A stretch of 64,000 nucleotides of DNA from Epilithonimonas zeae (lineage in GTDB: Bacteria; Bacteroidota; Bacteroidia; Flavobacteriales; Weeksellaceae): positions 1,302,001 to 1,366,000 of the forward strand of contig NZ_CP075338.1 of the NCBI RefSeq assembly GCF_023278365.1, written 5' to 3'. The stretch's first letter is position 1, and each line of letters starts with the position of its first letter. The position numbers were made by a program, and so were the translations under genes. The notes below the pieces were generated by a model. That model was not told the origin of the DNA. It made no database searches and saw only the letters and a list, made by a program, of their open reading frames with translations. Shown here in pieces: positions 15,628 to 60,016 of this stretch.

Positions 15628-15635
15628 TAACTTTG
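15628..15635 (+). promoter_or_regulatory. -7 promoter element of mnmE (TAACTTTG)
   Basis: Matches the Bacteroidota TAnnTTTG -7 element. It ends six bases before the mnmE ATG at 15641, so the transcript may be leaderless or nearly so. No clear -33 element was seen. Confidence 0.45.
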
Positions 15636-15640
15636 TGAGC

Positions 15641-17026
15641 ATGAATCAGGATACTATTTGTGCGCTGGCAACAGCTAACGGAATTGGAGCTATTGGAATC
15701 ATTAGAGTTTCCGGAAATCAATCTTTTGAAATTGTCAATAAAATATTCGAAGGTAAAAATCTGGAAAAGGTGGAATCGCACACAGTTCATTATGGTTTTA
15801 TCAAGGATGAAGATGAAACGATTGATGAAGTAATGATCTCTGTTTTTCACGCACCAAAAACTTTCACGACAGAAAATTCTGTAGAAATTTCTTTCCACGG
15901 CTCGCCTTACATTGGTAAAAAAATTCTTGAAGCCTTAATTAAAAATGGCGCAAGAATGGCGAAAGCGGGAGAGTTCACAATGCGCGCTTTTATGAATGGC
16001 AGAATCGATTTGTCTCAAGCTGAATCTATTGCAGACCTGATTGCGTCTGAAAACGAAGCTTCAAGAAAAGTAGCTTTGAATCAATTAAAAGGCGGAATTT
16101 CGAACGAAATTTCATTCCTGAGAAATGATTTGCTGAACTTCACTTCTTTAATAGAATTAGAACTTGATTTTGCTGAAGAAGATGTGGAATTTGCTGACAG
16201 AACCGCACTTAAATCCTTACTTTATAAAATAGAGGATAAGCTAAATTCTTTGATTGAAAGTTTCCAGTACGGAAATGCCATTAAAAATGGAACGGCAGTC
16301 GCAATTATTGGAAAACCGAATGCTGGAAAATCCACTCTTCTCAACGCACTTTTAAAAGAAGAGAGAGCAATTGTAAGCAATATCGCAGGAACAACTCGTG
16401 ATACGATTGAAGAAATTCTCCATATCAAAGGTCATGCATTCCGTTTAATTGACACAGCTGGTTTACGCGAAACATCAGACGAAATTGAAGCGATTGGGGT
16501 AAAAAAAGCTAAAGAAAAAGTAGAGAATGCTGAGATTTTAGTTTATCTGGCTGATGCCGGAACTGAGGATTTTTCAGAAGATATAGAAATGATAAAGTCT
16601 CTATTGAGAGTTGATCTGAAGTTGATTATCTGTGCTACAAAAATTGATGAAGTGATTCCAACTCAATATGAAAAATTAGAACAGATTTTCAGAAACGAAA
16701 TCTCCACGGATTTTGATTTTATAAAAATATCAGCCGTTGAGAACCAGAATATTCAGGATTTGAAAAATGAGTTATCTTCCTACATAGAGCATCTGAAATC
16801 AGAAGAGGGAAATGTTGTCATTACCAATCAACGTCATTATGAAGCTTTGCAAAAATCCTTGAATTCAGTTGAACGAGTTGATGATGCGGTGAGTTCGCAA
16901 ATCACAACGGAACTTTTGGCTTATGAACTTCGTAATGCTTTAGAATATCTTGGCGAAATATCTGGGGAATTCAGCAATGATGAGGTTTTAGGAAATATTT
17001 TTTCGAAGTTTTGTATCGGGAAATAA
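15641..17026 (+). CDS. mnmE: tRNA modification GTPase MnmE
   Basis: A 461-aa MnmE (TrmE), which with MnmG makes the 5-carboxymethylaminomethyl modification at wobble uridine of certain tRNAs. N-terminal formyl-THF-binding domain (DTICALATANGIGAIGIIRVSG-type start), helical domain, G domain with GKPNAGKS, DTAGLRET and the potassium-dependent insertion, and the C-terminal catalytic CIGK. Start: ATG at 15641; a GTG two codons upstream is less likely. Its last codons form the attachment site of the 29-kb element that follows. The terminal TGT-ATC-GGG-AAA-TAA is probably supplied in part by the element. Confidence 0.97.
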   Translation: MNQDTICALATANGIGAIGIIRVSGNQSFEIVNKIFEGKNLEKVESHTVHYGFIKDEDETIDEVMISVFHAPKTFTTENSVEISFHGSPYIGKKILEALIKNGARMAKAGEFTMRAFMNGRIDLSQAESIADLIASENEASRKVALNQLKGGISNEISFLRNDLLNFTSLIELELDFAEEDVEFADRTALKSLLYKIEDKLNSLIESFQYGNAIKNGTAVAIIGKPNAGKSTLLNALLKEERAIVSNIAGTTRDTIEEILHIKGHAFRLIDTAGLRETSDEIEAIGVKKAKEKVENAEILVYLADAGTEDFSEDIEMIKSLLRVDLKLIICATKIDEVIPTQYEKLEQIFRNEISTDFDFIKISAVENQNIQDLKNELSSYIEHLKSEEGNVVITNQRHYEALQKSLNSVERVDDAVSSQITTELLAYELRNALEYLGEISGEFSNDEVLGNIFSKFCIGK

Positions 17027-17195: not shown

Positions 17196-18335
17196 ATGAA
17201 TATTACTTTAAAACAGAAAAATTTAGCTGATGGAAGGATTAGTCTTTTCATTGAGTATTACAAGGGTTCTTCTACTAATGCACAAGGAAGAAGAGTTCAC
17301 CTGCGAAATTTTGAGTATTTAAAACTGTATTTGCACCCCGATCCAAAGTCGGCTAAGGAAAAAAAAGAAAATAAAGAAACTATGGCTCTTGCCGAAAGTA
17401 TTTTGGCAATCAAAAAAGCTGAATATGTTCAAGGTCGCTACGATTTGAAAGATACTGTAAAAAGTAAAAGGACTTTTTTAACATACTTTGAGGAGTTGAC
17501 AGAAGAAAAACAAAAACAAGATACTTCTAATAATTACGGTAATTGGTTATCGACTCTACAACATCTCAAAAAGATTGTTCCAAAAAATATGACTTTCGAT
17601 GAAATTGATGAAAGCTTCGTCAAGAAAGTTCACCGATATTTCGAAAAAGATGCTCTCACAAAAAGTGAGCTGCCACTTTCTCAGAACTCAAAATATTCAT
17701 ATTTCAACAAGTTTAAAGCTGCTCTAAGAAGTGCTTTCGATAATGGATATTTGACAGTAAATTATGCGTCAAAAGTAAAATCCTTTGAACAAGCGGAAAG
17801 CCAAAGAGAATATCTGATTTTTGATGAATTGCAACGTTTAGCAAAAGCGGAATGCAAATACCCGGTTTTGAAAAAAGCATTTCTTTTTTCGTGTTTATCA
17901 GGACTACGGTGGTCGGATATTAATACTTTGACCTGGAAAGAAGTTCGTGATGAAGGTGATGTTTCCAGAGTCAATTTCCGACAGGAAAAAACAGATGGCG
18001 TAGAATATCTCTACATCTCAAAACAAGCCAGGGAATTGCTGGGCGAAAGACAAGATCCTCAAGCAAGAGTTTTCAAAGGTTTGAAATATGGAATGACCTA
18101 CAATACTGAAATTATCCGTTGGTGCAATCGAGCTGCAGTTCCTAAGCATATTACTTTTCATTCAGCGAGACATACGAACGCTGTCTTACTTCTGGAAAAT
18201 GGCGCTGATATTTACACAGTTTCAAAAAGACTGGGACATCGGGAATTGAGAACGACTCAGATCTATGCAAAAATTGTGGATAGCAAAATGAAAGAAGCTG
18301 CTGAGATTATTCCGGAATTAAATATCGAGTTATAA
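17196..18335 (+). CDS. int: tyrosine recombinase (integrase)
   Basis: A 379-aa site-specific integrase of the Bacteroidota type. Arm-binding N-terminal domain (about 1-85), SAM-like core-binding domain (about 90-190) and catalytic domain with Arg238 (LSGLRWSDI), Lys265, His322-x-x-Arg325 (HSARH), His348 (LGHRE) and nucleophile Tyr357 (TTQIYAKI). It lies 170 bases inside the left att site, pointing into the element, and should catalyse integration at and excision from the mnmE 3' end. Confidence 0.95.
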   Translation: MNITLKQKNLADGRISLFIEYYKGSSTNAQGRRVHLRNFEYLKLYLHPDPKSAKEKKENKETMALAESILAIKKAEYVQGRYDLKDTVKSKRTFLTYFEELTEEKQKQDTSNNYGNWLSTLQHLKKIVPKNMTFDEIDESFVKKVHRYFEKDALTKSELPLSQNSKYSYFNKFKAALRSAFDNGYLTVNYASKVKSFEQAESQREYLIFDELQRLAKAECKYPVLKKAFLFSCLSGLRWSDINTLTWKEVRDEGDVSRVNFRQEKTDGVEYLYISKQARELLGERQDPQARVFKGLKYGMTYNTEIIRWCNRAAVPKHITFHSARHTNAVLLLENGADIYTVSKRLGHRELRTTQIYAKIVDSKMKEAAEIIPELNIEL

Positions 18336-21964: not shown

Positions 21965-22130
21965 CTTTTCTTCGAAAAGGGTGAAAAAACTTCGGAACTC
22001 GTTTTTTTGTTTTGGAAATCCTTTTTTTTTAAGAATAGAAAACTATGTATTTTGTTTAGATATATATAGAAGAAATTGCTGGTGAAAAGAAAAAGACTAT
22101 TGAGAAAGCGAAGTAAAAGTAGTGAGTGAA

Positions 22131-22157
22131 AATACTAAATTGATGCAATTTAGTATT
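22131..22157. repeat. perfect 11-bp inverted repeat
   Basis: AATACTAAATT / AATTTAGTATT with loop GATGC. It has no following T tract, so it is not an obvious terminator. It is a candidate protein-binding site or part of an origin. Confidence 0.45.
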
Positions 22158-22439
22158 AAATGTTTTTTTTGATTGTCAATTTGATGTGGCTATTTCAAGT
22201 TCAGTCTAAACAGTGGAATTTATTTTATCTGCGTTTGCTTTTATCAGAAAAACAAAACATTCGTTAAGCCAAGAAAAAATCAATATAAAAATATTTGTAA
22301 GTACTAATAATCAAACCATCAAAATAAATTTTATATTAGCAGTAGAAAATAGCTTTAAGAAAGTTATATAAATCAGATTGACGCAATACGTAAATTTGGA
22401 AAACATCTGCCTTTTATAATACATTTCGCTGACAACTTT

Positions 22440-23807
22440 ATGAAATCAAAATCTGAATTTAAAGAAGAATATAAAGAAATATGTGATCTTGCATTTTCAT
22501 ATGCAGTTTCAAATATGAATGAAAATATTTGTGAAGAACCAAATATTAAAAACTGGACTAAAGAAAATCAAACAAAATTTTTGTCTTTAGTAAATGAAGG
22601 TTTCAAAAAGGCTCAAAATGAAATTATTAATCAAATTATTTTTTATCAAGAGAAACTAGCCATAGCTAAAATCGAATTAAAAACAAGTAGAAAAAACAGA
22701 GATAAGAATTTAGAAAAAAAGATAAAAAGTAATATAGATTTAATATCATATCGCTTGAAACTTCTTTCTTACATAATGGATGGGATAGCATGGCAATTAT
22801 TTGGTGGACAGACATTTATAACCAAAAGGTTTTATATTGGAGAAACTCCTAAAACATTGACAAATTCCAATATTTTGCACGTGAAAAATGTTGCAGATAA
22901 AATTAATGAAGATCCTTTACAATTTGCTTTAATATCAGACCTGACAAATTTTGTACAAATTGGAGATTTAGTTATTAAGAGAAAAAATGGGGTTGGGATT
23001 TGTGAACTTAAAGAAGGTAAAATCAATGAAGAACTTATTGAAATTAAAAATAAAATCTATCAAAGTGACATTAGTAATGAAATAATTAACAATACCATAA
23101 AAGAATTAGATAAAAAAAAGTTAGAACAATTGCAAAGAATGCTTAAGCAAGATGCAAGAATGCAAGATGCAATTGATGTTGTTAACAATGAAGAAGGAAA
23201 TGATCACAAAACAGGAAAAGAAATAAAAATTATTTCCAATGAATCTCCTACACATTATTATCATAATGAAATGCTGAGAACAATTTCTGGTTTAAGTGAC
23301 AAAAACTGGGCGTATCTTGTAGAAGATTTATCAATAATACATTTAGGTGCGTATAAGCCTGATTCATATATATTATCAAATATTGCTATTCGCGCAATCT
23401 TAGATGAACAATCTAAGAACTATATAATTGCTGATTACAAAGAAATTATAAATGCTACTTCTCAACCAATATTTGCAAAACCTCTACCTCCGGAAATAAT
23501 TAATGAAATATTATTTGATGATATTAGAATTATTATTGGTATTGATCTCACAATGTTCTTTAAGAGATTTGAAGAGATTTTTGGAATAAAAACAGAATTT
23601 TTATCTCGAAAAGAGACGAAGAAATTATTAGAAGAAAATAAAGAAAATGCTAAGAATTTTTTTACAATAGACAATAGGTCGATTAAGTTTGTTAATCCTA
23701 AAAATGGAAATTTTGTTATGCTAGGAGGCGGAATAATCTCTAAGCTATTATTTGATAATTACCATCCAATATCTATTTTTGAATATATTAATGAACTTCT
23801 TAACTGA
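22440..23807 (+). CDS. unknown protein with a PD-(D/E)xK-like motif, first cargo gene
   Basis: 455 aa, strongly AT-rich, family not recognised. Residues about 60-115 are a charged coiled-coil-like stretch, followed by YIMDGIAWQLFGG. Residues 176-191 (GDLVIKRKNGVGICELKEGK region; Asp176, Glu189, Lys191) have the spacing of a PD-(D/E)xK nuclease core. The C-terminal half has a LIVEDLSIIHLGAYKPDSY-like block and ends in MLGGGIISKLLFDNYHP. It has its own spacers on both sides, so it may be a stand-alone defence gene. Nuclease activity is inferred only. Confidence 0.5.
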   Translation: MKSKSEFKEEYKEICDLAFSYAVSNMNENICEEPNIKNWTKENQTKFLSLVNEGFKKAQNEIINQIIFYQEKLAIAKIELKTSRKNRDKNLEKKIKSNIDLISYRLKLLSYIMDGIAWQLFGGQTFITKRFYIGETPKTLTNSNILHVKNVADKINEDPLQFALISDLTNFVQIGDLVIKRKNGVGICELKEGKINEELIEIKNKIYQSDISNEIINNTIKELDKKKLEQLQRMLKQDARMQDAIDVVNNEEGNDHKTGKEIKIISNESPTHYYHNEMLRTISGLSDKNWAYLVEDLSIIHLGAYKPDSYILSNIAIRAILDEQSKNYIIADYKEIINATSQPIFAKPLPPEIINEILFDDIRIIIGIDLTMFFKRFEEIFGIKTEFLSRKETKKLLEENKENAKNFFTIDNRSIKFVNPKNGNFVMLGGGIISKLLFDNYHPISIFEYINELLN

Positions 23808-24026
23808 AAAAAACTGCAAATAGCATAGTTTTGCAAAATATGGTATTAAGCACAAAATTGAAATTCTACTCCTTTTATTCCGCAAATTGCTTTTCATTTT
23901 GATTGTTTAATTTTAACAATATGAAAAAGCATTTGCTAAGTTTCCGAATTCTTGAACTTTTAATTCTTCGAATTCCCGCACGTCGCACATCCTTTTCCGT
24001 TAGCTATAATTTTTTAAACCGACACC

Positions 24027-24773
24027 ATGAGCCTAATAGACTATCATCGAACAACATCAAGTGAACTTTTAGCCTTGACAAATAAAGTCAGAAGCCTGAT
24101 AACACATTGGGGTGAAGACGGGCGTTACAAGGAAGCGGTTTTGAAAAATGTTATAGGACGTTTCCTGCCTGAAAAATACTTAATTGGGACTGGTTTTGTG
24201 ATTAAACAAACTGAAAATCGTGGCGAACATTTATCATCAAGACAGATTGACTTAATAATTTATGATGATGCAAGTCCTGTACTATTTAAAGAGGGTGATT
24301 TTGTAATCTTAACACCAGATGCAGTTAGAGGAATTATTGAAGTAAAAGCAAATTTACAAAACCAAGGAGTAACCGGTGTTTTACATCAAGCAAATGAAAA
24401 TGGGCAATTTATTTTATCAGGTAAAGAAGATAAAACGCAAAATTTTTTCAACGGCGTATTTTCATACGAAGGTTTCGGAAATAATTTCGCTATGCAAACT
24501 TTCGTAGACAATTATTTACAAAGCAACCTAGACTTTTCAACTGATATTGATTACTTGAAGTTTAAAGTAAATCACGTTTCCTTAAATAAAGATTGGTTTA
24601 TAAAGGTATGGAATGATGATACAAATCCTCATTCAATTTATAATATTGAAGACCTTTCCTTTTCATTCTTTATTTCAAACCTTATTGACACTTTGGCGAA
24701 CAAATCAATTCAGAAAAACAATTTTATTTGGTATGCAACTGACAAAGAACTAAATCTCAAAAGACAATTTTGA
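24027..24773 (+). CDS. DUF6602-type protein (nuclease-like fold)
   Basis: A 248-aa protein that I recognise as a DUF6602 member: FLPEKYLIGTGFVI, then SSRQIDLIIYDDASPVLFKE, then LTPDAVRGIIEVKANL. Asp75, Glu105 and Lys107 make a PD-(D/E)xK-like triad (IDLIIYD...IIEVKA), so a nuclease or nucleic-acid-binding fold is likely. Such genes are frequent in defence islands. The biochemical role is not known to me. Confidence 0.65.
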   Translation: MSLIDYHRTTSSELLALTNKVRSLITHWGEDGRYKEAVLKNVIGRFLPEKYLIGTGFVIKQTENRGEHLSSRQIDLIIYDDASPVLFKEGDFVILTPDAVRGIIEVKANLQNQGVTGVLHQANENGQFILSGKEDKTQNFFNGVFSYEGFGNNFAMQTFVDNYLQSNLDFSTDIDYLKFKVNHVSLNKDWFIKVWNDDTNPHSIYNIEDLSFSFFISNLIDTLANKSIQKNNFIWYATDKELNLKRQF

Positions 24774-25143
24774 AAGTAAAACAACAGGTAAGATAGATTT
24801 GTCTAGAGCGGGGCTGAAGTGCTTTGATTGAAAATTTTTTGCAAGGTTCAACATTCATACTTCTATTGAAGTCTTGCGTTGCAAACTCCATTTTCGCCAG
24901 CACCCAAACGTTAAAATAAATTTAAAAATCTCAAAAAAGAATGGGTTTGATGTTATTAGAAAAATAGTTAGATTTTTAAATTTTTGTTGTTTGATAAAAA
25001 AAATTAAATTGGTTTCAAAAAAACAATATAAAATTTTGCTCCTTAACAATTAATGATTTTCCTGTAATTGAATTTATAAATTTATTCAGCAATTTTCTGT
25101 TTACTCTATTAGTTATTTCTCTTTTATTACCCTGTTTTTGAGG

Positions 25144-25242
25144 TATAAAAAGAAGCCCACGCCGTTGTATATACTACTTGAGTATTTAGTGAGTATCCGT
25201 GACCTCACCCTACGGGTGTACAAGCACCCTCGTTGTTCTTGG
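25144..25242 (-). ncRNA. candidate guide RNA of the dCas12f homologue
   Basis: Directly downstream of the dCas12f stop, the minus strand can fold three consecutive hairpins: GGGTG-CTTGTA-CACCC (25229-25214), GTGAG-10 nt-CTCAC (25208-25189) and ATACT-CAAGT-AGTAT (25185-25171). An unpaired ATACAAC (25170-25164) follows, then non-structured sequence. This is the layout of Cas12f/TnpB-type guide RNAs, where the scaffold ends in a CAAC-like tail and the guide follows. If so, the guide begins GGCGTGGGCTTCTTTTTATA (25163-25144). Neither transcription nor the exact ends can be known from sequence. The rest of 24774-25140 shows nothing recognisable. Confidence 0.5.
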
Positions 25243-26337
25243 CTATCCAATAATCAATTCGATGCCTGCCTTTTCTGCTTTGTATTTTATTTTGGTCTGC
25301 AATTCATAATAACTCCAGTTGCGAAGCACAAATTCCTGTTCTTTTGCAATTCCTATTTTGTCTTGCTGATTTTTAAGAATAAGTGTACCCGCCTGTTGCT
25401 GGATGCAGAAATCAATCAGTTTGCGGCTATACAAATGAAGCCGATGGCTTACGTAACGGCTTTCTAGATTTTCTGTCTTATATAATGCCTTCTGTTTCCG
25501 TTTAGCTCCATTTTCTGAACGGGCATAGGCAATACCCTCCTTAATCCTTTTTTGACTTGCCTGAATCGCCAACCTGCGATACAAAAACTCTTCTTTTGAT
25601 CCAATATTGATTCGGACATTGTTGGCTTTTGCAACTATTGGATGCTCCAGAGAAAGGGAAGCTTCCGCTATGATTTCGGGTTTTAAAAGATGCTCGTCCT
25701 TATCAAATTCAAAAACTGCAAGCCAGAAGATTTTCCTGTCTTTCAGCTGTATCTGCGAAGTGCAAAGCTTTATCTCTTCTTTTAGCAGACGTTCCATAAT
25801 CACTCGCTTATCAGTGTAGTCTCTGCCTAAGTATGTTTTGACAGGTATCGCAAACATATTAAAACAAAAGGCTTTCGTTTCTGCGTCAAATCTCATTCTA
25901 CTAATGCATTTAACCGGAAGTGGGATCGGAATGTCTCTTTTATAATTTCTAAGTGATTTTGTTCCCTGCCAATAATCGGCTTTGTTTTTAGAAAAAGTTG
26001 ATTGAATTGTATTGTTAAGACTTCCCAGAATATCTGTCGGGATTTCCCCTTTGAATCGGTCAAACACCATTCGTGCTGTAGTGCCAGTTTTCGAACGGTT
26101 AAAAATTCCCATATGATCTTTTTTTTCATCAGCTAACTTGTATTGGATTTCTTCTGTGAAGTAAAAGAAATCTTTGATCATTTCCTGGACATATAAATGT
26201 GAAGCTATTAAGTTGGCCGCTCGGAAACAACGGTTCTGATATCGATAAAGTTTTTCCCACATTTCATTTTTTTGATCCGATGGAACATCGATCAATAACT
26301 GAATTTTTCGGGTAAGTGTCATCGTAGATTTTTCCAT
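25243..26337 (-). CDS. nuclease-dead Cas12f-like RNA-guided protein (dCas12f)
   Basis: A 364-aa Cas12f/TnpB-superfamily protein that cannot cleave. The conserved landmarks are clear: EEFLYRRLAIQ, GAKRKQKAL, SHRLHLYSRKLIDFCIQQQA and LRNWSYYELQTKIKYKAEKA. RuvC-I, normally GVDLG-x-x-HP, reads EASLSLEHPIVA with Ser227 in place of Asp. RuvC-II, normally ExDL-type, reads TLILKNQQ with Lys322 in place of Glu. The protein stops at AGIELIIG, before the zinc ribbon and the RuvC-III Asp. The start at 26337 is one base after the sigma-factor TGA, so the two are translationally coupled; an ATG at 26388 would overlap the sigma gene. Expected role: RNA-guided DNA binding that recruits the sigma factor. Confidence 0.82.
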   Translation of the reverse strand: MEKSTMTLTRKIQLLIDVPSDQKNEMWEKLYRYQNRCFRAANLIASHLYVQEMIKDFFYFTEEIQYKLADEKKDHMGIFNRSKTGTTARMVFDRFKGEIPTDILGSLNNTIQSTFSKNKADYWQGTKSLRNYKRDIPIPLPVKCISRMRFDAETKAFCFNMFAIPVKTYLGRDYTDKRVIMERLLKEEIKLCTSQIQLKDRKIFWLAVFEFDKDEHLLKPEIIAEASLSLEHPIVAKANNVRINIGSKEEFLYRRLAIQASQKRIKEGIAYARSENGAKRKQKALYKTENLESRYVSHRLHLYSRKLIDFCIQQQAGTLILKNQQDKIGIAKEQEFVLRNWSYYELQTKIKYKAEKAGIELIIG

Positions 26338-26338
26338 A

Positions 26339-27154
26339 TCAAATAGGTATTTCAGAGTTTTTCCGATTCTGTAAATATTGATAGGCACAAAGAAACTCTT
26401 GATGCACTTCTTTTTCAGAAAGTTTGAGTTCTCGTGCGATCACTGCAAATGAAGATTTCTGTTCAAATCTTCTTTTTATGATTTCAATTTGTTGACTGCT
26501 AAGTTCATCTTGGTGAACCTTGTCTTTCTGAGATTCAATCGCTAGCTTTCCATTAGAATTTGTCTTTAAGATTTTCTTTAGATCGTTTATTGCCCCAGCT
26601 ACTTCATTGCTTATATCTTTAACACTACTACCCATTGCTTCTGCAATAGGTTTGTATCTAAAGCCATATTGAAGGCAAAGCTCGATCAGGTGCTTTCTTT
26701 TTGGGTTTATCACCTTTAATACTTTATTGACTTCATCAAAATCTTTTTGATCGGACTCCTGCTGAATAAGATTTTCTTTGTCTTGCAGAGGATCATATCC
26801 GATAAGATAATCCTGATAATTCTCAAAACTTTCAAGGGAAGCTGTTAAGCGAGCGAATTTATTTTTCGGAGCAGTAAAATAAGATATACAGTCTCTTTTT
26901 AAAACAAACCGCAAAAAGCCAAGAATATGATTTGGCGTTTCTATGGAATCACGGTGTAACCATAATTTAAGAAATGTATCTTGCACAAGTGTTTCCACAA
27001 CAAAATCATCGTCAAGCATTTGTTTTCCGATCCAGAAAAGAAGTCTTTTGTACCGTAGATGAATATGTTCTAATGAGGCAGGATTACCTTTTTTCAGCAG
27101 TTCATATAACTGAAAATCAGTTAGCTTTCGGGGTAGTGAGTTTGTTCTTTTCAT
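26339..27154 (-). CDS. sigma-70 family (ECF-like) sigma factor linked to dCas12f
   Basis: A 271-aa sigma factor, longer than the usual 160-200 aa of ECF sigmas. Region 2 lies at about 12-93 (LRYKRLLFWIGKQMLDDDFV, VETLVQDTFLKLWLHRDS, ending LKRDCISYF) and region 4 at about 138-195 (KRKHLIELCLQYGFRYKPIA, EAMGSSVKDI). An additional C-terminal segment at about 215-262 (LSSQQIEIIKRRFEQKSSFA, VIARELKLSEKEV) resembles a second region-4-like HTH. No anti-sigma gene is adjacent; the dCas12f gene follows after one base. In recently described Bacteroidota systems such sigma factors are brought to DNA by dCas12f and guide RNA. That is the favoured role here (inference). Confidence 0.85.
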   Translation of the reverse strand: MKRTNSLPRKLTDFQLYELLKKGNPASLEHIHLRYKRLLFWIGKQMLDDDFVVETLVQDTFLKLWLHRDSIETPNHILGFLRFVLKRDCISYFTAPKNKFARLTASLESFENYQDYLIGYDPLQDKENLIQQESDQKDFDEVNKVLKVINPKRKHLIELCLQYGFRYKPIAEAMGSSVKDISNEVAGAINDLKKILKTNSNGKLAIESQKDKVHQDELSSQQIEIIKRRFEQKSSFAVIARELKLSEKEVHQEFLCAYQYLQNRKNSEIPI

Positions 27155-27284
27155 AAGCGGTATTTTTCAGCTTATTGATTGCTAAAAGAAACTGCTTAGA
27201 TATCCGAATGAATTATCTGTACCATTTTATGCAATATCTCACTACATCTTGCCTCCAAATAAATGGCGTGAAACTCAACATATC

Positions 27285-27393
27285 CGAACTGGGGCACTGG
27301 TATACCTTATATGCAGATAAGTGAGCTCACGCCTAGGTCGTGAGCTACTTTACTTATCCTCTCGCATATTAAAAATTACCAGTTTTCAGTTCG
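27285..27393. repeat. 109-bp imperfect palindrome upstream of the sigma/dCas12f operon
   Basis: Five nested arm pairs are found: CGAACTG 27285-27291 / CAGTTCG 27387-27393; ACTGGTA 27296-27302 / TACCAGT 27377-27383; ATATGC 27309-27314 / GCATAT 27364-27369; GATAAGT 27316-27322 / ACTTATC 27352-27358; AGCTCACG 27324-27331 / CGTGAGCT 27339-27346, with small internal loops and a seven-base apical loop. It lies between the divergent sigma and XRE genes. It may be a structured RNA, a cis element or a cruciform site. Confidence 0.7.
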
Positions 27394-27485
27394 AGATTCT
27401 AAGCAATAGCTTCTATATTTCTTTGAAGTATCGCAAAGTTACATTTCAATAACTTATTTTACAAATATAAGAATATTTTCTAAAA

Positions 27486-27503
27486 TATGTACTATAGTAC
27501 ATA
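27486..27503. promoter_or_regulatory. 18-bp palindromic operator upstream of the XRE gene
   Basis: TATGTACTATAGTACATA is a perfect 18-bp palindrome, 33 bases before the XRE start codon. It is a likely binding site of the XRE protein itself, as for controller proteins of restriction systems. Confidence 0.65.
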
Positions 27504-27536
27504 ATATTTTTTGATGTTTTTCATTCACTTTGGTTT

Positions 27537-27818
27537 ATGAATGAATCATTAGAAGAAATAGAAAGATATGTTATAAAACGTGTTAAAGAAATACGAGAAT
27601 CAAAGAGTGTCACTCAAGAGGAACTCTCACTTTCTATTGGGAAGAATATTGGATTTATTTCACAGATAGAAGCTCCATCTAAAAAAGCAAAATATAATTT
27701 GATCCATCTAAATCTAATTGCAATAGCATTAGGATGCTCCATTAAGGATTTTCTTCCTGATGAACCTATTCGAGATAAGAAATACGATATTAAAGAAATT
27801 AAAAGTAAAAAATCCTGA
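27537..27818 (+). CDS. XRE-family transcriptional regulator (controller-like)
   Basis: A 93-aa Cro/CI-type HTH protein: residues about 12-70 contain VKEIRESKSVTQEELSLSIG, NIGFISQIEAPSKKAKYN and LNLIAIALGCSIKDFLPDE. Size and location, just upstream of a restriction/anticodon-nuclease island, match controller proteins of restriction systems. A perfect palindrome before its start suggests autoregulation. It is divergent from the sigma/dCas12f operon. Confidence 0.85.
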   Translation: MNESLEEIERYVIKRVKEIRESKSVTQEELSLSIGKNIGFISQIEAPSKKAKYNLIHLNLIAIALGCSIKDFLPDEPIRDKKYDIKEIKSKKS

Positions 27819-28294
27819 CGAGAGTTGGGATTTTTTTGTAATGATAAAAGTGCTTTTAGAGATTAGAATGAAGAGTTAAACTACATCTTGTACCTTATTT
27901 TTTGATTGATATAAAAACAATTTGAATTTATGACCTTCTTAGTCGCTCAATCCTAAACGACTATTTGAATTATTGATTTAAAAAGATCTTCTTCGTACTT
28001 ACGCATAAGATTTTATTAAGAAAATATGAGAAGATTCATTTGAGAAAATAGTTTGAATTCTGTGCTAATATTTTGTTTTGTTAAACGTTACGGTTTTCCG
28101 TTTTTTCTTTTACTTTCCTTTTGTTACATTTAAAGGTTGGAAAATACGGAATATCCAATTTAGCTTTTAGGTACATTTTAATCGAATATTAACGAGATTT
28201 GATGTAAAGTTTTCCTAATAGTAATAATGATTTATACAGTGCAATAAAAGATAGAGATGGTTAAATTCTAGAGAAAACTAAAAACTAAATACCA
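27819..28294. other. 476-base spacer before the RloC-like gene
   Basis: It begins with a weak hairpin plus T run (AAAATCC / GGATTTTTTT, about 27809-27837) that may end the XRE transcript. The rest is AT-rich with no open frame or structure that I can support. The promoter of the next gene is presumably here. Confidence 0.4.
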
Positions 28295-30526
28295 ATGATT
28301 AATTCAATTATTTTAAAAGGGGTAGCTACTTATGATTCAACAGATGGCATCCTAATAAATAATTTAAAAAGAGTAAATTTTTTATACGGAACCAACGGTT
28401 GTGGGAAAACTACTTTGTCTAATTTTTTACAAGAAACTGCTAACCCAATATTTGCAAATTGTAAAGTATCTTGGGTAGATGAGCAACCTATTAAGACATT
28501 AGTATACAATAAGTCATTTCGAGAACATAACTTCGGAAAAGGTAATATTAGTGGAGTCTTTACTTTGGGGCAAGCAACCACTGATGAAATAAAATTAATA
28601 GAAGAAAAAAAGGAAGAATTAAGAAAGATAAAAGATGAAGGTGGAAAATTAAAGGATACACTAAATAGTCAAATTGAAAAAAAGAAAAATTTAGAGAAGG
28701 AATTTACTGATGAATGTTGGAAGAAAATATACAAAAAATACGATAAGGAATTTAAAGATGCTTTTGTTGGTTCGATGAAATCCGGAGAATTATTTAAAAA
28801 CAGACTTTTAAAAGAATTTTCTACTAATACAGCCAATCTAGAAAACTTAGAATTTTTAAAAGAAAAAGCAAAAACTATATTTGGCGAAGTACCTCAGAAA
28901 ATAAAACTTATTAATGATATTATGTACAGAAATATAATATCAATTGAAAAAGATTCTATTTGGAATAAAATAATTGTTGGAAAAGCAGATGTCGATTTAG
29001 CTCGATTAATACAAAAGTTAAATATTAATGATTGGGTAAATGAGGGAAGAAAATATATACAAGAAAATGAAACTTGTCCATTTTGTCAACAAAAGACAAT
29101 CACAAAAGATTTTAAAAAACAGTTAGAAAACTTCTTTGATGAAGTTTACATCAATGATTTAAAAAAGTTAAAAGATTTAAAGCAAGAATATAATTCTGCT
29201 AATGAGAATATTCTTAACGAGCTTAATGCAATTGAAATTGATCATAAGATTCTAAAAGATTCTAAATTAGATATTAATAAGTTTTCCGCATATCTAAAAA
29301 CACTAATTAGCCAAAATACTACGAATAATGAACTCCTAAATAGTAAAATAAAAGAGCCTAGCAGGAAAATAGAGCTTATTTCTCTCGAAGAACAATTCGA
29401 TTTAATCAAAAACTTAATTGATAAAGCAAATGATGACATTAAGAAGCATAATGAATTAGTAGAAAATTTTATTTCAGAAAAAGACAAGCTAACTCAAGAA
29501 ATTTGGAAATTTTTGGTTGAGGAATTTAAAGATGACCTAGCAAAGTACAATTCAAATACTACCGGACTTGATAAAGGAATAATAAAATTAGAAGCAGACC
29601 GCGGTGCAAAGTTAGAAATTTATAAAACACTGAAAAGCGAGATTGTCAAGTTAAGCAAAAACGTTACTAGTATTCAGCCGACTGTTGATGAAATCAACAA
29701 TCTATTGCAGGCTTACGGATTTCTAAATTTTAAAATAGTACCTGCAACTGAAGATGGATTTTATCAAATACAAAGAGAAAATGGAGAAATAGCAGCAATG
29801 ACTTTAAGTGAGGGAGAAGTTACTTTCATTACTTTTCTATATTATTTACAACTTGCAAAAGGAAGCCTTGATGAAAACACAGTTAATGATGAGCGTATTT
29901 TGGTAATTGATGATCCAATTTCGAGCTTAGATAGTAATGTACTATTTGTTGTAAGCACTTTAATAAAAGAAATATTAAAAGATGTACGAAATAACATTGG
30001 AAATATTAAGCAAATTATTCTTTTGACTCATAATATCTATTTCCATAAAGAAGCTTCATTTGAAGGTAATAACAGAGGGAAGGGAGAAAGGAATCAATAT
30101 TATATACTTCGTAAAGTAAACTCTGTTACTAGATTATTTCCTTATTTAGATAAAAATCCAATATCTTCTTCGTACGATTTATTATGGAATGAAATAAAGG
30201 ATTATAAAAAGAATTCTGGTATCACTGTTCAAAATGCAATGAGAAGGGTAATCGAAAATTACTTTAGTATTTTAGGACAAAAGAGAGATGAGACATTGTT
30301 GTCAAAATTTACTAATCCTCAAGAAAAGGAAATTTTTAGATCATTATTGAGTTGGATAAATGAAGGCTCACATACTTTGCCTGATGATTTATATGTTGAA
30401 CTTCCTGATCAGTCAATAGAATCTTATTTAAAAGTTTTTAAGGAAATATTTCTCCACACACATAATATTGGGCATTATAATATGATGATGGGTGCCGAAG
30501 AAAATGAAGAAATACTAGTAGAATAA
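28295..30526 (+). CDS. RloC-like anticodon nuclease (AAA ATPase with zinc-hook and HEPN-type end)
   Basis: A 743-aa AAA_13-type ATPase. Walker A is YGTNGCGKTT (GTNGCGKT 32-39). A long coiled coil carries the zinc-hook CPFC (Cys260, Cys263). The ABC signature LSEGE and Walker B ILVIDDPISSLDSN follow. The C-terminal region has Arg650-x3-Glu654 and His693 (MRRVIENYF ... INEGSH), resembling the Arg-Glu-His triad of PrrC/RloC anticodon nucleases. RloC proteins cleave tRNA when DNA damage or anti-restriction is sensed, and are often tied to type I restriction systems, as here. The zinc hook favours RloC over PrrC. Function inferred from motifs. Confidence 0.75.
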   Translation: MINSIILKGVATYDSTDGILINNLKRVNFLYGTNGCGKTTLSNFLQETANPIFANCKVSWVDEQPIKTLVYNKSFREHNFGKGNISGVFTLGQATTDEIKLIEEKKEELRKIKDEGGKLKDTLNSQIEKKKNLEKEFTDECWKKIYKKYDKEFKDAFVGSMKSGELFKNRLLKEFSTNTANLENLEFLKEKAKTIFGEVPQKIKLINDIMYRNIISIEKDSIWNKIIVGKADVDLARLIQKLNINDWVNEGRKYIQENETCPFCQQKTITKDFKKQLENFFDEVYINDLKKLKDLKQEYNSANENILNELNAIEIDHKILKDSKLDINKFSAYLKTLISQNTTNNELLNSKIKEPSRKIELISLEEQFDLIKNLIDKANDDIKKHNELVENFISEKDKLTQEIWKFLVEEFKDDLAKYNSNTTGLDKGIIKLEADRGAKLEIYKTLKSEIVKLSKNVTSIQPTVDEINNLLQAYGFLNFKIVPATEDGFYQIQRENGEIAAMTLSEGEVTFITFLYYLQLAKGSLDENTVNDERILVIDDPISSLDSNVLFVVSTLIKEILKDVRNNIGNIKQIILLTHNIYFHKEASFEGNNRGKGERNQYYILRKVNSVTRLFPYLDKNPISSSYDLLWNEIKDYKKNSGITVQNAMRRVIENYFSILGQKRDETLLSKFTNPQEKEIFRSLLSWINEGSHTLPDDLYVELPDQSIESYLKVFKEIFLHTHNIGHYNMMMGAEENEEILVE

Positions 30527-30904
30527 TTTTGTAAACAATAAATACCTTACAAAATTAGCTCTTGCATTATCTCTTAAATATAAACCTTACAAATCATTTA
30601 AATAAAGAATTCTAAGTCGGTTGTAGAGAAGAGCTTTTTTCCCACTCTACGTTAACACAAGGTTCCCAAACAACAATGTATTGGTCGTCCTTGAAAATTA
30701 AGAAATGGGATAATTACAATTTTAAATATTGATTTCTAAATAATGGTGCACAAAGCGTTTAGGACAGAACTCAGAAAATTTTCTGGGTTTGATGTACAAG
30801 AGCAAAATAAAATTTATCTGTCATTTCGTCACAATCCGAGTTCCCAAGTTATAGCGAAAGCCAGACAAAGGTTTTGGAAATGATAATGTAATTGAAATTT
30901 AATA
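30527..30904. other. 378-base spacer, little recognised
   Basis: AT-rich sequence without a supported gene. It holds a perfect 14-bp palindrome CAGAAAATTTTCTG at 30772-30785 that might be a protein-binding site. No terminator with a clear T tract follows the RloC-like gene. Confidence 0.35.
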
Positions 30905-32608
30905 ATGAAACGAAAAAAAATTGGAAGGAATTTAAAATTAGTGGTAGCTCAAAATTGGAAAGATATTTTTCCGGATAAAATTGAAAAAAGAAATGTTATA
31001 GATCTTTTGGCAGGTATTGATCCAGATATCTTGTTGCTAATTGTTTGTGCAATAAATCAATCCTTTATCGCAGGGGAATCCTTTGAAATGAAATTGATCG
31101 ATTCATTGTCAGATCTTGAGAAAATAAAATATCGATATGAGATAAGTAAAATATTGAATTGTTTAAATAAGAGAAACTCTAATATTAACGAAACAAAGTG
31201 TATTTTCAATGTCAAAGCTAATAACCTATTAATTAAAAAAATCGTTGAGAATTATAATTATTTAAAGGATAAATCAAATTCTGAATTCGAATCATTTCCA
31301 TTTATTCAGGCATATTTAATATTCAATTCAGAAGTGTATCCCACTATTAAATTTATGGATGATATACCAGAGAAGTACTTCAAAAGCCTAGCGCAATTCA
31401 TTATTACAACAAAAACCATTGATTTTGATTTTGTTTATCATCAGCTGTTTATTTTTGTTCGGTTACGATCTTTGTTTGAGTATCTATGTAGAAATTATTC
31501 TGGTTTTTTGCAGCGATTTGAAGATAAGCATAATATAAATGGTTTAGACAAATATATTTTTGATCAACTCTTTTTATTAAACTATTTGGATGACAAAAAC
31601 TATATAAGTTTAGACCCAAAAAATTCAAAAGAAATACGAATAAAAGAATATTGTGAAGAATTATGCATAAATTCATTATTCAATAAACAAAAAATTGAAC
31701 TAAAATATTATCCACTGTTAAAGGATATTGATAATGACAATGGTTATTTTGTGCTTAACAAAGCTTACTTATTCCTGAATTTTTATCATAAAATAAAATA
31801 TAAAGTATTCCAATTTTTAACTGAAGAATACAAGGCATTTAATTCGTATAACGATTTTTCTTCCGAATATGCAGAAAAGGGGAGTGAAGAAATATTGTTT
31901 CGAAATTTGATTCAATTATCCTTAAAGAATAAGTATTATAAAGTAATATTTAATGAAAAAAATAAATCATTAATTGATTGTCTAATAATCAATAATAAAC
32001 ATATTTTTATATTCGAATTTAAGGATTATGAGAGCATTAATAAATTAGATACGATCTACGATTATAAAGAGGTCGAAAGAATAATTGAGAAAAATTTTGT
32101 CAAGAAAAAAGGAATCTCTCAATTAATCTCAATGATGAATAAGTTAAAAATTAACAGTGACTTTAAAGAGATTATTGCAAGAAAAAATATTAAACCTCAT
32201 ACTATCGAAATATATCCTGTTATTGTAGTATCAAATTCATTTTATAATATTCCTTCTTTAGAGCATTACTTAAGCCTCAAAATGATGGAAAAACTTAGTG
32301 TAATAGATTTAGGTGTTAAAAAAGTTCACAATCTTACAATGATTGATTTAAATTCATTGGTTGAATTAACATACTATAATAATCAATTTGATTTGGTAAA
32401 ATGCCTTAAAGAATATGCGTTGAAAAAAAAGAAATTTAATGAAAATGTAGCTTTACCCAATTACCCATCTTTTAGGGAAAGTTTCATTAAAGCAGATATT
32501 GTAAAGAATGGTGATTTTCTTACACAATTTTTAAAGTTAACTAACTTTGAAAACACTGAAGATATTAAATCAATGCCTGACGATTTTTTTAAACGAAAGA
32601 AAAGATAG
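30905..32608 (+). CDS. unknown protein with a C-terminal PD-(D/E)xK-like motif
   Basis: 567 aa, Lys- and Asn-rich, AT-rich, no recognised family. A long helical N-terminal part is followed by residues 329-380, where Glu329 (SEEILFRNLI), Asp358 (SLIDCLII), Glu371 and Lys373 (IFIFEFKDYE) match the E...D...ExK layout of PD-(D/E)xK nucleases; then comes KKGISQLISMMNKLKIN. It sits between the RloC-like gene and hsdM, with spacers on both sides. It may be a restriction-like effector of its own or a companion of the type I system (inference). Confidence 0.5.
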   Translation: MKRKKIGRNLKLVVAQNWKDIFPDKIEKRNVIDLLAGIDPDILLLIVCAINQSFIAGESFEMKLIDSLSDLEKIKYRYEISKILNCLNKRNSNINETKCIFNVKANNLLIKKIVENYNYLKDKSNSEFESFPFIQAYLIFNSEVYPTIKFMDDIPEKYFKSLAQFIITTKTIDFDFVYHQLFIFVRLRSLFEYLCRNYSGFLQRFEDKHNINGLDKYIFDQLFLLNYLDDKNYISLDPKNSKEIRIKEYCEELCINSLFNKQKIELKYYPLLKDIDNDNGYFVLNKAYLFLNFYHKIKYKVFQFLTEEYKAFNSYNDFSSEYAEKGSEEILFRNLIQLSLKNKYYKVIFNEKNKSLIDCLIINNKHIFIFEFKDYESINKLDTIYDYKEVERIIEKNFVKKKGISQLISMMNKLKINSDFKEIIARKNIKPHTIEIYPVIVVSNSFYNIPSLEHYLSLKMMEKLSVIDLGVKKVHNLTMIDLNSLVELTYYNNQFDLVKCLKEYALKKKKFNENVALPNYPSFRESFIKADIVKNGDFLTQFLKLTNFENTEDIKSMPDDFFKRKKR

Positions 32609-43147: not shown

Positions 43148-44911
43148 ATGCTGGATCTTGTTGAAGTTCATGAAGAATTATATTTATATCTGCTTGAACA
43201 AAGGAAAAGAAATTCTGAACTAAAATTTACTTTTAGAAAAAGTAATCATGCAAATAGATTGGAAGAAGGGTATTGGTTTTACGGAAATGAAAACTATTTA
43301 GCAATATCATTTTGGGAAGGGATGGATTGGAAAAATAGAACTCCGAATATATGTTTCATAATTGATAACGAGGGAAAATGCACCTTGGAAATTAATGTTT
43401 CAGATTCTACTATCAAGAAAGAATTTATTGAAAGATATTTTTTAGAAAGAACACTAAATTTAGAAAAAATTGGTAAAAAATATATCATCAAGTATGATAA
43501 TGTTTTTTCTGAATACAGTAATCGCATATATGATCTAAACGATTACAAGTCTGTTTTTGATTTTTTCCTGCACACAGATAAAGAAAATATTGATGATATT
43601 ATTAGGAGTAATTCTGATTTTTTTGAGATGATGGGATCAAGTGAAAATGAAATTTCATTTTTAAGTTCAGAAGAATTTCTAAAAAGACATAATAAAATTA
43701 GGCAATATAGAAAACGCAAGCAAGAGATTGATAATGAAGATGAATTTGTTATCAAAGAGGATAAGCCTTGGAAATTATTTTCAATTGATATAAAAGATTA
43801 TGGATTAATAAATGACTTATCGATTGAAATAAAAAACAAAAAAAATCAGTGGATATTTTTAACAGGTGAGAATGGATCTGGTAAAACGAACCTTTTACGA
43901 GCAATGGCAACAGCATTGGGAAATAGAATGTTGTCAAAAAATGAATTTGAAGAAAATCCTAATTTTAAAGTTACTGCCAACTTCATTTATAAAAATAAAT
44001 TACAAGAATACAGTAGAATTGGAAATGGTGAAGTAAAAGGTAAAAGAAAACCATACATTCAAGGGTTGGCAATGTATGGTCCATATAGACTTGATATGGT
44101 GGTAGATAAGATGAATAAGGCTAAATTTAAAAAAGAATTAAATAAAGAAGAGTCTTTCAAATCTTTATTTAAGGTAGGAACTCCACTATTAAGTATTGAC
44201 AAACAGTTTGAGTTTTGGAGGTCTGGATCAAAGCGGGAAAAGAATCTTTTTCAAAAAAGAGAATATTATATTAAGTCTTTAATAATTGATGTTGTTCATA
44301 ATTTAGTTGATATTAGATTTACCATTGAAAATAACAAAAAAATTACAAAGTACATTTTTACTAATGATCAGAATCAAGAATATTCTTTAGTTTGGGAAAA
44401 ATTATCAACTGGTACAAAGAGTACTATTGCGATGCTTGGTGATATTCTGATTCGTCTTTTCAATCAACAATCTGACATTCTTGATCCAGCAGAATTACGT
44501 GGGATTGTTATTATAGATGAAATTGATTTACACCTTCATCCTAAAGCACAAAAAGAATTAGTAATAAACCTCTCAAGAACATTTCCTAATATTCAATTTA
44601 TTGTTTCTTCCCATAGTCCAATACCTTTTATTGGTGCACCTGAAGAGAGTGTATTCATTACGGTTGAAAGAGATCAGAATGATAATATCAAAGCGACAAT
44701 GTTAGATATAGACATTTCAAATCTATTACCTAATACAATTTTAAGCTCACCTATTTTTGGCTTTGATTCCATAATTAATGTTCAACATAATCCAAATGAG
44801 AGTTTGATAACAGAAAACGATTATCAAGAAGCCGCATTTTATAAAATTTTGAATAGAAAGATCACGGAACGAACTATACAATTAGGAATAGATAATGATT
44901 CAGATAACTAG
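43148..44911 (+). CDS. AAA ATPase of a Septu-like system (PtuA-like)
   Basis: A 587-aa protein. About 200 N-terminal residues are unrecognised; then comes an ABC/SMC-type ATPase with Walker A LTGENGSGKTN (about 239-249), Walker B GIVIIDEIDLHLHP and the switch His in FIVSSHSPIPF. The partner HNH gene overlaps its end by 17 bases, the same ATPase + HNH plan as Septu (PtuA/PtuB) and the effector pair of retron Ec78. No reverse transcriptase is present, so Septu-like is preferred. It lies 31 bases after hsdR and probably shares the operon. Confidence 0.78.
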   Translation: MLDLVEVHEELYLYLLEQRKRNSELKFTFRKSNHANRLEEGYWFYGNENYLAISFWEGMDWKNRTPNICFIIDNEGKCTLEINVSDSTIKKEFIERYFLERTLNLEKIGKKYIIKYDNVFSEYSNRIYDLNDYKSVFDFFLHTDKENIDDIIRSNSDFFEMMGSSENEISFLSSEEFLKRHNKIRQYRKRKQEIDNEDEFVIKEDKPWKLFSIDIKDYGLINDLSIEIKNKKNQWIFLTGENGSGKTNLLRAMATALGNRMLSKNEFEENPNFKVTANFIYKNKLQEYSRIGNGEVKGKRKPYIQGLAMYGPYRLDMVVDKMNKAKFKKELNKEESFKSLFKVGTPLLSIDKQFEFWRSGSKREKNLFQKREYYIKSLIIDVVHNLVDIRFTIENNKKITKYIFTNDQNQEYSLVWEKLSTGTKSTIAMLGDILIRLFNQQSDILDPAELRGIVIIDEIDLHLHPKAQKELVINLSRTFPNIQFIVSSHSPIPFIGAPEESVFITVERDQNDNIKATMLDIDISNLLPNTILSSPIFGFDSIINVQHNPNESLITENDYQEAAFYKILNRKITERTIQLGIDNDSDN

Positions 44912-45803
44912 AAAAGATTACAATGATATTCCCGAACCTTTGACAAGACCTGGGACATTTAGGCAAATTGAGCGTGCAGTTGCAGAAATGAATGGTGATA
45001 AGTACAATACTACTTATTATAAAGATGAAGTTGTAGTTAATAAGCTTAAAGCATTTTCTGTGCATAAAGATAATCTTGATGCGGGTGATAAACCAAAATG
45101 CTATTATTGTGAATCATATGTTGATCACGTAGCGACTTTACAGGTTGAACATTTTAGACCAAAGGCTAAAGTCGATGAAATTGATAATAATAGTTTATCC
45201 CATCCTGGTTATTATTGGTTGGGTTTGGAGTGGAGCAACCTTTTGTTATCTTGTCCAAGTTGTAATGGTAAAAATGCAAAAGGTAATAGATTTCCTTTAG
45301 TTGATTTCAACAATAGAGCCAGAGCAATAAACCCAATAGGAAATTCACCACTTTCATTTGACAGAACACATTGTATTGCCAATCAATCTCCCTTATTAGA
45401 TGAAGAACCATTATTAATTAATCCGGAGTATGAGGATCCGACTCCTTATTTGACATTTAATGACGTAGGACAAATACAGGGTATTGGTGAAAAAGGAGAA
45501 AAGACAGTTGATATATTGAAATTATATAGAGATCCTTTGTTGGCAGCCCGTCAAGTTAAATTAAATGAAATTATTAAGAATATTGAATTAGCTTGCGCAG
45601 CAAGAGCAATGGGTAAAATTAATGATGATGGTCTAAAAGTTTGGCTAGAAGCAGAGTGTACTAAAGTCTTAGAATTAGATAATGTTAGAAATGAGTACTG
45701 TTTGTGGGGTAGACATATTATTGCAAATTTTGAAAGTTGCGTTGTTTCTAAAATTGCGATATATAAAGACGAGTTACGAGATGCTTTCCAAGAAGTTAGA
45801 TAG
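44895..45803 (+). CDS. HNH endonuclease of a Septu-like system (PtuB-like)
   Basis: A 302-aa HNH nuclease. Zinc ligands Cys69-x2-Cys72 (CYYC) and Cys120-x2-Cys123 (CPSC) frame the catalytic VEHFRPKAK with His86 and the NGKNAKGNRFPL helix. PtuB-type nucleases degrade DNA or RNA when released by the PtuA ATPase during phage attack. It overlaps the ATPase gene by 17 bases and is the last gene of the element before the right end. Confidence 0.82.
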   Translation: MIQITRKDYNDIPEPLTRPGTFRQIERAVAEMNGDKYNTTYYKDEVVVNKLKAFSVHKDNLDAGDKPKCYYCESYVDHVATLQVEHFRPKAKVDEIDNNSLSHPGYYWLGLEWSNLLLSCPSCNGKNAKGNRFPLVDFNNRARAINPIGNSPLSFDRTHCIANQSPLLDEEPLLINPEYEDPTPYLTFNDVGQIQGIGEKGEKTVDILKLYRDPLLAARQVKLNEIIKNIELACAARAMGKINDDGLKVWLEAECTKVLELDNVRNEYCLWGRHIIANFESCVVSKIAIYKDELRDAFQEVR

Positions 45804-58712: not shown

Positions 58713-58755
58713 TATTTTATACCTTTAGCGCCCTTAATTTTTTGAAATGAAAAAA
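58713..58755 (+). promoter_or_regulatory. duplicated upstream region of endonuclease gene 1
   Basis: 43 bases identical to 59983-60025, covering a TACCTTTA -7-like box, the leader CGCCCTTAATTTTTTGAA and the first nine bases of the gene. Confidence 0.6.
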
Positions 58756-59820: not shown

Positions 59821-59842
59821 TCAAAACAAATTTATTTCAATG

Positions 59843-59868
59843 AAAGACAGAAATTAATTTCTGTCTTT
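59843..59868 (+). terminator. terminator of endonuclease gene 1
   Basis: 26-bp perfect palindrome AAAGACAGAAATT / AATTTCTGTCTTT followed by T residues. Confidence 0.85.
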
Positions 59869-60016
59869 TTTTTATTTCGCAATATTAAAAATCTAAAATT
59901 TTATCGAATAGAAAATACAATATTTAATTAATAATAAATTACTGCTACAATGTTAATAATTAATAACATTAATCAATCATAATATTTTATACCTTTAGCG
60001 CCCTTAATTTTTTGAA

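Follow-up and report, generated by a model that had tools for sequence, protein, structure and literature searches.

The locus examined here places a gene for an ECF-type sigma factor directly before a gene for a nuclease-dead Cas12f (dCas12f), and the question that it raises is which DNA such a pair would be guided to and what would follow from its binding there. The stretch analysed, referred to below as the window, comprises 64,000 nucleotides of Epilithonimonas zeae (positions 1,302,001 to 1,366,000 of contig NZ_CP075338.1, assembly GCF_023278365.1), and the coordinates of its relevant features are collected in Table 1. The favored reading, to which a probability of about 0.57 is assigned on the basis of sequence comparisons, is that this mobile dCas12f-sigma module and its predicted guide RNA bind the DNA of a leader with the layout of a switch and start transcription past the first arm of the leader's predicted terminator. 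The elements that can be read from the DNA are the gene pair, the dead catalytic site, a guide-like unit, the leader with its alternative helices, and the identity of the guide seed with one leader strand.

Table 1. Coordinates of the features discussed, in positions of the window
Feature	Position	Strand	Remarks
Tyrosine integrase of carrying element	17196..18335	+	Phage_integrase, Arm-DNA-bind_5
Guide GGCGTGGGCT, then T-rich run	25144..25163	-	Flanks diverge past the T run
Predicted guide RNA scaffold	25164..25231	-	Starts 11 nt past the dCas12f stop; kept in 15/15 genus copies
Nuclease-dead Cas12f	25243..26337	-	364 aa (ATG form; GTG-start form to 26388); PDB 9n9c
ECF-type sigma-70 factor, dCas12f partner	26339..27154	-	271 aa; Pfam Sigma70_r2 and r4; PDB 9n9q_C
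Leader RNA element upstream of sigma (model R1)	27257..27411	-	Covarying structure; E 2.8e-33 in own genome (copy in training set)
Predicted terminator 3' arm TCACGCC, then T-rich run	27265..27271	-	Compensatory A-U at a pair otherwise G-C in 39/45 leaders
Predicted RNA-guided start	27287..27287	-	46 nt after the TAM, by arithmetic from a literature distance
Guide-like strand GGCGTGAGCT in own leader	27324..27333	-	Terminator 5' arm and hairpin 3' arm; predicted self-target, 1 mismatch in 10
TAACTTTG, presumed primary-sigma-type -7 motif ahead of leader	27434..27441	-	TAnnTTTG pattern
Divergent small HTH (XRE-like) gene	27537..27818	+	HTH_19 E 4.9e-6, below curated cut-off

The sigma factor and nuclease-dead Cas12f gene pair

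The sigma protein has Pfam Sigma70_r2 and r4 matches above cut-off and aligns over residues 17-262 with chain C of PDB entry 9n9q, named RpoE (E 2e-82), and the dCas12f matches PDB 9n9c, named nuclease-deactivated Cas12f, over its full length (E 3.3e-156), the next PDB chains being Cas12f and TnpB-like nucleases with far weaker scores. A single base separates the sigma stop codon from the dCas12f ATG at 26337. The dCas12f frame can be read as 381 aa from a GTG at 26388, overlapping the sigma gene, or as 364 aa from the ATG, and the latter start is supported because 9n9c begins at the Met aligned with it and because M18 is invariant among 10 aligned sequences. In the 381-aa numbering, the position of the RuvC-I Asp in the Cas12f 9nzo is taken by Ser244 and that of the RuvC-II Glu by Lys339, and the protein stops short of RuvC-III and the zinc ribbon, the Pfam TNB domain being matched at 1-20 of 60 and below cut-off. 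Ser244 is invariant and position 339 is never acidic in the 10 aligned sequences, which include the window's copy, and as these catalytic losses are common to all 10 they are probably ancestral. Since dCas12f has 1137 homologues at E<=1e-3 (the best 120 of the 1137 being listed) and the sigma domains score above cut-off, the pair is, by these matches, far beyond chance.

Judged by the same similarities, the pair belongs to an already known kind of protein system. The sequence-only reading made earlier had described a 271-aa sigma ORF followed after one base by a 364-aa Cas12f homologue, with which the ORF coordinates agree, and the alignment with an active Cas12f that it had proposed as a check, made here against 9nzo, confirms the losses that it had named (RuvC-I Asp to Ser, RuvC-II Glu to Lys, no zinc ribbon or RuvC-III). 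Its suggestion of a probable RNA-guided transcription system is matched by the similarities to 9n9c and 9n9q and by the guide RNA-like unit that follows dCas12f. The span that it gave held both genes and omitted the predicted guide RNA (25231-25144, minus strand), the leader and the divergent HTH gene; the guide RNA, the guide-matching leader and the predicted targets had thus escaped it.

Distribution of the module and likeness to known systems

Matches to dCas12f were found in 11 of the 23 genomes of the genus (E<=1e-3) and, in a sample of 395 genomes from the order, in 22 (E<=1e-20), with two or three matches per genome, fragments included, in 3/11 and 8/22 of the positive genomes, respectively. 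A search of named genomes found 232 relatives, the best 80 of which were kept for locus counts; these 80 loci come mainly from Weeksellaceae and Flavobacteriaceae, with two from Echinicola. A sigma ORF lies upstream of dCas12f in 14 genus loci, namely those in which an upstream ORF was read. Plasmids and phages gave matches in 4 and 2 records, respectively, none of them at 60% identity or above. One further dCas12f (L073) is cut by a contig end. A literature search returned no paper on dCas12f with sigma factors among the matches listed.

Type V-F CRISPR-Cas12f is alike in having a homologous protein (9nzo, E 1.6e-38) and is defined by an active RuvC site; in contrast, the window's dCas12f has lost the catalytic residues, no CRISPR-like repeat array was found in window positions 22000-31000, and neither Cas1 nor Cas2 was found among the proteins scanned. 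TldR proteins are not known to have a sigma partner and act alone, which differs from the sigma ORF preceding dCas12f in the 14 genus loci read. TldR proteins share with the window's dCas12f the loss of nuclease activity, the relation to TnpB/Cas12f and the use of a guide RNA, which they apply to host genes (PMC13418256), and they differ in acting by repression, whereas the window's module, with its sigma partner, is predicted to activate.

Predicted guide RNA

The unit downstream of dCas12f is read as a predicted guide RNA because of its position, its conservation and its match to other genomic sites. Throughout the genus the scaffold has the form GAGGGTGCTTGTA..ACTCACTAAATACT..AGTATATACAAC, after which come GGCGTGGG and a T-rich run (15/15 copies, one copy being a fragment). 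By pattern expression, a guide RNA-like unit follows dCas12f in 76 of the 80 named loci, and the 82 units found in total divide into 69 of the GCGTGRG type and 13 others. Among the same 80 loci, L200, L236 and L241 yielded no guide unit with this expression, and the sequence of L187 ends near the position expected for one.

Several loci (L163, L164, L165, L166, L167 and L169) carry tandem guide units with differing guides after dCas12f. A degenerate dCas12f C-terminus lies between the guide units of L167 (E 1.5e-5; one of nine loci checked), which suggests that guide arrays can grow by duplication of the 3' end of the dCas12f gene. A second guide class, TGAGCGGTTTTC, GGGGCGGTTTTC and AGAGCGCCTTTC, is seen in L167 and L169. 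The GCCTTCCC guides of L165 (genome G342) resemble a GCCTTCCC stretch upstream of their own sigma gene, where the leader model described below (R1) has no match, and this sequence perhaps represents a different target class. Truncated dCas12f C-termini that retain the guide RNA unit, possibly orphan guides, are present in L011 and L072.

A leader RNA upstream of sigma factor and receptor genes

Outside sigma operons, the first copies of the conserved element that lies upstream of the sigma gene were found by a guide-like pattern search of the genus at <=2 mismatches, in which the counts per genome were near those of the reversed control; one recurring string stood among the matches listed, and all nine places fetched proved to be leader copies upstream of other genes. 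Model R1, built from 21 leader copies, finds two leaders in the window's own genome (150 of 1524 first-look candidates being scored), the one before the sigma gene and a second at G000:C1:780666-780830 (E 1.5e-10). At E<=1e-5 the leader occurs in 22 of the 23 genus genomes, including 11 of the 12 without dCas12f. Twelve of the 56 genus leaders precede sigma-dCas12f and 20 precede a SusC-type N-terminus, as judged by eye from the longest nearby ORF, the other 24 being followed by ORFs for small secreted proteins, by regulator-like or different ORFs, or by no ORF. Four SusC-type proteins, half of them from the genus and half from other genomes, were tested against Pfam and all have a TonB Plug domain; a fifth protein, of another class, has a thioredoxin fold. 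In the named loci the leader stands before sigma in 62 of 80, at 0.85-1.2 kb before dCas12f, where the sigma gene begins. The motif TAnnTTTG, which we take to be a primary-sigma-type -7 promoter motif, is found within 60 nt upstream of the leader in 55 of 60 stronger loci, compared with 3.0 expected from shuffles.

No match to the leader was found in Rfam 15 for the window region and eight leader-bearing loci. Structured 5' elements without Rfam matches are known from Flavobacterium, with none before SusC in the accessible part of the report (PMC9723704). The leader upstream of sigma and of SusC/TonB receptors is what is new here, and not mobility.

The second leader (L119 4667-4831) lies in another integrative island, beside tRNA-Met, that contains a tyrosine integrase and an AAA_21/methyltransferase gene, and it precedes two small secreted-looking proteins with no Pfam match and a weakly lipocalin-like one. 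A Flavo-1 RNA (RF01705, E 2e-13) is located at L119 8359-8465.

Two competing helices in the leader

The structure was examined in an alignment (A5) of 45 leaders picked for diversity, which left out low-scoring leaders, among them the second leader of the window's genome and three genus sigma leaders with the strand lost or changed. A hairpin, GCTCACG/CGTGRGC, has 100% of its cells paired and 4/7 pairs changed on both sides, and a predicted terminator helix, GGCGTGR/YCACGCC plus CTC/GAG, is 96.2% paired with 8/10 pairs changed on both sides. Against shuffles that do not keep relatedness, none of 500 reached any of the five measures for the terminator helix; for the hairpin, none of 500 reached four of the five, and 500/500 reached the count of further pair types. 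A T-rich run (five or more T among the final 9 nt) follows the terminator helix in 41 of the 45 aligned leaders. The two helices are mutually exclusive, with GGCGTGRGC as their common strand, and the layout is predicted to be that of an attenuator in which an antiterminator-like hairpin competes with a terminator. The full leader of the window folds best in the hairpin state (-57.7 vs -49.2 kcal/mol). Its two mutually exclusive conserved helices and T-rich tail liken it to attenuators and riboswitches, and it is unlike them in having no Rfam match and in that one of its strands is the guide's match.

Match between guide and leader

The guide copies the leader strand that is common to both helices. 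An exact GGCGTGRGCT occurs at four places in the 3.94 Mb of the window's own genome: in the guide, in each of the two leaders and once within another gene. The window's guide matches over 10 nt at most before its T run, with one mismatch in ten to its own leader, which has A for G at position 7, and with 10 nt matched in the second leader, which then diverges. A search of the own genome with 16 nt of the guide at <=2 mismatches found the guide itself only. Two other GCGTGRGCTC sites were dropped as targets, as they fall within ORFs of 596 and 1026 aa and have T before them, and a site at 3558922 (L184) was rejected because it lies inside a long open frame. The TAM of the window's site would be the G that forms the first base of GGCG, but the register differs by one base between families, and a G TAM requires that the first G of the guide be placed opposite it.

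Across the named loci, 51 GCGTGRG-type guides have a leader at their locus, and for 21 of them that leader holds a site that follows a G and differs from the guide at <=2 of 12 positions, against 2/1020 in shuffled leaders; the other 30 have at least 3 mismatches in 12, partly from the T run. The strand GCGTGRR is kept in 50 of the 62 sigma leaders of named loci and altered in 12, and among genus sigma leaders it is kept in 9/12 and altered in L007, L123 and L132. On account of these altered strands, self-activation as predicted from the match is not general.

For the GCGTGGG class, the identity of guide and leader is partly circular, because the first non-sigma leaders were found with the guide sequence and picked by a common string; the cases with odd guides are not. 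Genome G366 has GCGTGACAT in both a guide and a leader, and in G157 and G363 leaders with CTCAC are paired with CTCA-type guides. A second leader is matched by a guide over the first 10 positions in G101 and G395. Counter-cases are G342, in which the guides do not match the SusC leader and the sigma operon has no R1 match, G317, which has no leader but its own, and the second module of G363, which has a CTCT guide and no CTCT leader.

Guides and sites in Allomuricauda

Preprints from 2025 reportedly describe RNA-guided transcription by the F. taeanensis dCas12f-sigma system, with 5'-G as the TAM and transcription starting some 46 bp downstream. Allomuricauda taeanensis JCM 17757 (L245) encodes the 9n9c sequence as far as it is printed. 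The F. taeanensis system (9n9c, 9n9m, 9n9o, 9n9q) shares with the window the gene pair and its order, the lost catalytic residues and the downstream guide unit, and its dCas12f is 63% identical to that of the window. The guides differ, GGCGTGGGCT in the window and TTGTGGGATATACGC in F. taeanensis, as do the match sites, which lie inside the leader for the window, including that of its own operon, and 187 bp beyond the leader for F. taeanensis, whose guide has no match in its own leader.

A search of four Allomuricauda genomes with GTTGTGGGATAYACG (<=2 mismatches) gave 13 to 22 places per genome compared with 12 to 14 for the reversed control, and with counts so near the control most of these places are taken as chance. 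Seven loci were read, and the five best sites, GTTGTGGGATAC[AC]CG, come from three of the genomes, including the F. taeanensis reference. All five, which have a preceding G by search design, share a strand with the leader motif GAAAACTGG and are found 312-344 nt further downstream. Judged by eye, three of the five are followed by receptor-type ORFs, the two other loci ending too soon, and a TonB Plug protein follows the one site tested. The remaining two loci are the guide itself and L298 (GTTATGGGATATACG), a G-preceded site with one mismatch and without a leader; no GTTGTGGGATAC[AC]CG site was found in the fourth genome (G412). As the window-type match falls inside the leader and the Allomuricauda sites just downstream of it, two unrelated guide sequences both appear to point to the leader or to the stretch directly after it.

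Proposed mechanism and alternatives

According to the favored reading, a primary-sigma promoter would make the leader RNA, which would end early whenever the terminator helix forms. Guided dCas12f would open the DNA at GGCGTGRGC, its sigma partner would recruit RNA polymerase at the leader, and the new transcript, lacking the 5' arm of the terminator, would run into the gene. The start predicted at 27287 would fall between the terminator arms at 27333 and 27271-27265. Transcription from there would escape the terminator, because the remnant of the leader, the 31 nt beyond the +46 start, has no predicted structure, while the terminator segment folds at -29.2 kcal/mol. Candidate targets in the own genome would be the operon of the module, amounting to self-activation weakened by one seed mismatch, and the leader in the other island, and candidates in relatives include SusC/TonB receptor genes. 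In a broader and more tentative reading, given somewhat less than even odds, the module, as a mobile sigma factor guided by RNA, would override an RNA switch of the host. Its guide would copy the strand contested by antiterminator and terminator in a previously undescribed leader of Bacteroidota, with transcription of receptor genes, island cargo and its own operon starting beyond the terminator whatever the leader senses. The altered strand in 12 of the 62 sigma leaders slightly lowers the odds of both readings.

If true, this would identify the natural targets of RNA-guided sigma factors from a large group, account for the near constancy of their guides, and give such guides the role of forcing transcription past an attenuator. 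It would also tie these sigma factors to a leader RNA that is widespread before SusC-type receptors even where the system is absent, and the analysis in addition describes an RNA element without a match in Rfam 15.

The same module could be an ordinary dCas12f-sigma activator, with the leader an unrelated 5' UTR element, the guide identity reflecting only that a sequence conserved by chance ahead of SusC genes is targeted, and with no bypass of a terminator. This would accommodate the leaders in 11 of the 12 genus genomes without the protein, the Allomuricauda sites that lie downstream of the leader and not inside it, and the strand altered in 12/62 sigma leaders, but it leaves aside that the seed falls on the very strand common to both alternative helices and that the predicted start lies beyond the terminator 5' arm in both guide classes; it is considered unlikely, although it retains real weight.

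A bound dCas12f that halts polymerase coming from an upstream promoter would make the leader a site of roadblock, as for the TldR proteins, which repress transcription (PMC13418256). The location of the site downstream of the TAnnTTTG motif in 55/60 loci agrees with such a role, which is nevertheless improbable given the sigma ORF before dCas12f in the 14 genus loci with an upstream ORF read and the RpoE included in the solved dCas12f entry. Action on the leader RNA instead of the DNA, with GGCGUGGG pairing with the terminator 3' arm as an antiterminator in trans, would account for a guide seed equal to the sequence of the terminator 5' arm; however, the sigma factor would not be needed, and in Allomuricauda the DNA matched by the guides lies outside the arms and is preceded by G, so that this is held to be very improbable. 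The least credence is given to the view that the module is decayed or silent and travels as cargo, for which the T run of the guide, its mismatch to the own leader and the truncated dCas12f copies elsewhere (L011, L072) could be cited, whereas both ORFs are intact and highly conserved and the leader, the window's copy included, keeps compensatory changes.

Carrying element and neighboring genes

The integrase of the carrying element adjoins the 3' end of mnmE (15635-17026), a 463-aa ORF whose end is intact, and a search at the far end of the element gave no att repeat of mnmE of at least 13 nt. The earlier description of a mobile element integrated in mnmE thus holds as regards an integrative element, mnmE itself being intact and merely adjacent. 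The mobile location had also been put forward as the new aspect, which is not borne out, as some of the positive genomes hold two or three matches and the flank of L245, the F. taeanensis reference, has an integrase-like match, like 10 of the 80 named loci in all.

Besides the tyrosine integrase, the element encodes HTH_17, VapE and Toprim proteins, a PD-DExK nuclease-like protein, an AAA_13 protein (PADLOC PDC-S06) and a type I restriction set that encloses two Orf5/HEC-06-like genes. A small divergent ORF of differing sequence stands beside the leader in 19 of 20 loci checked, its HTH likeness being weak and coming from the window's copy alone. Directly after the type I restriction set of the same element, a Septu-like PtuA and an HNH partner occupy window positions 43148-45803. 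Two tandem similar secreted-looking proteins of 357 and 353 aa, with a common C-terminal stretch, are encoded at 58747-61078.
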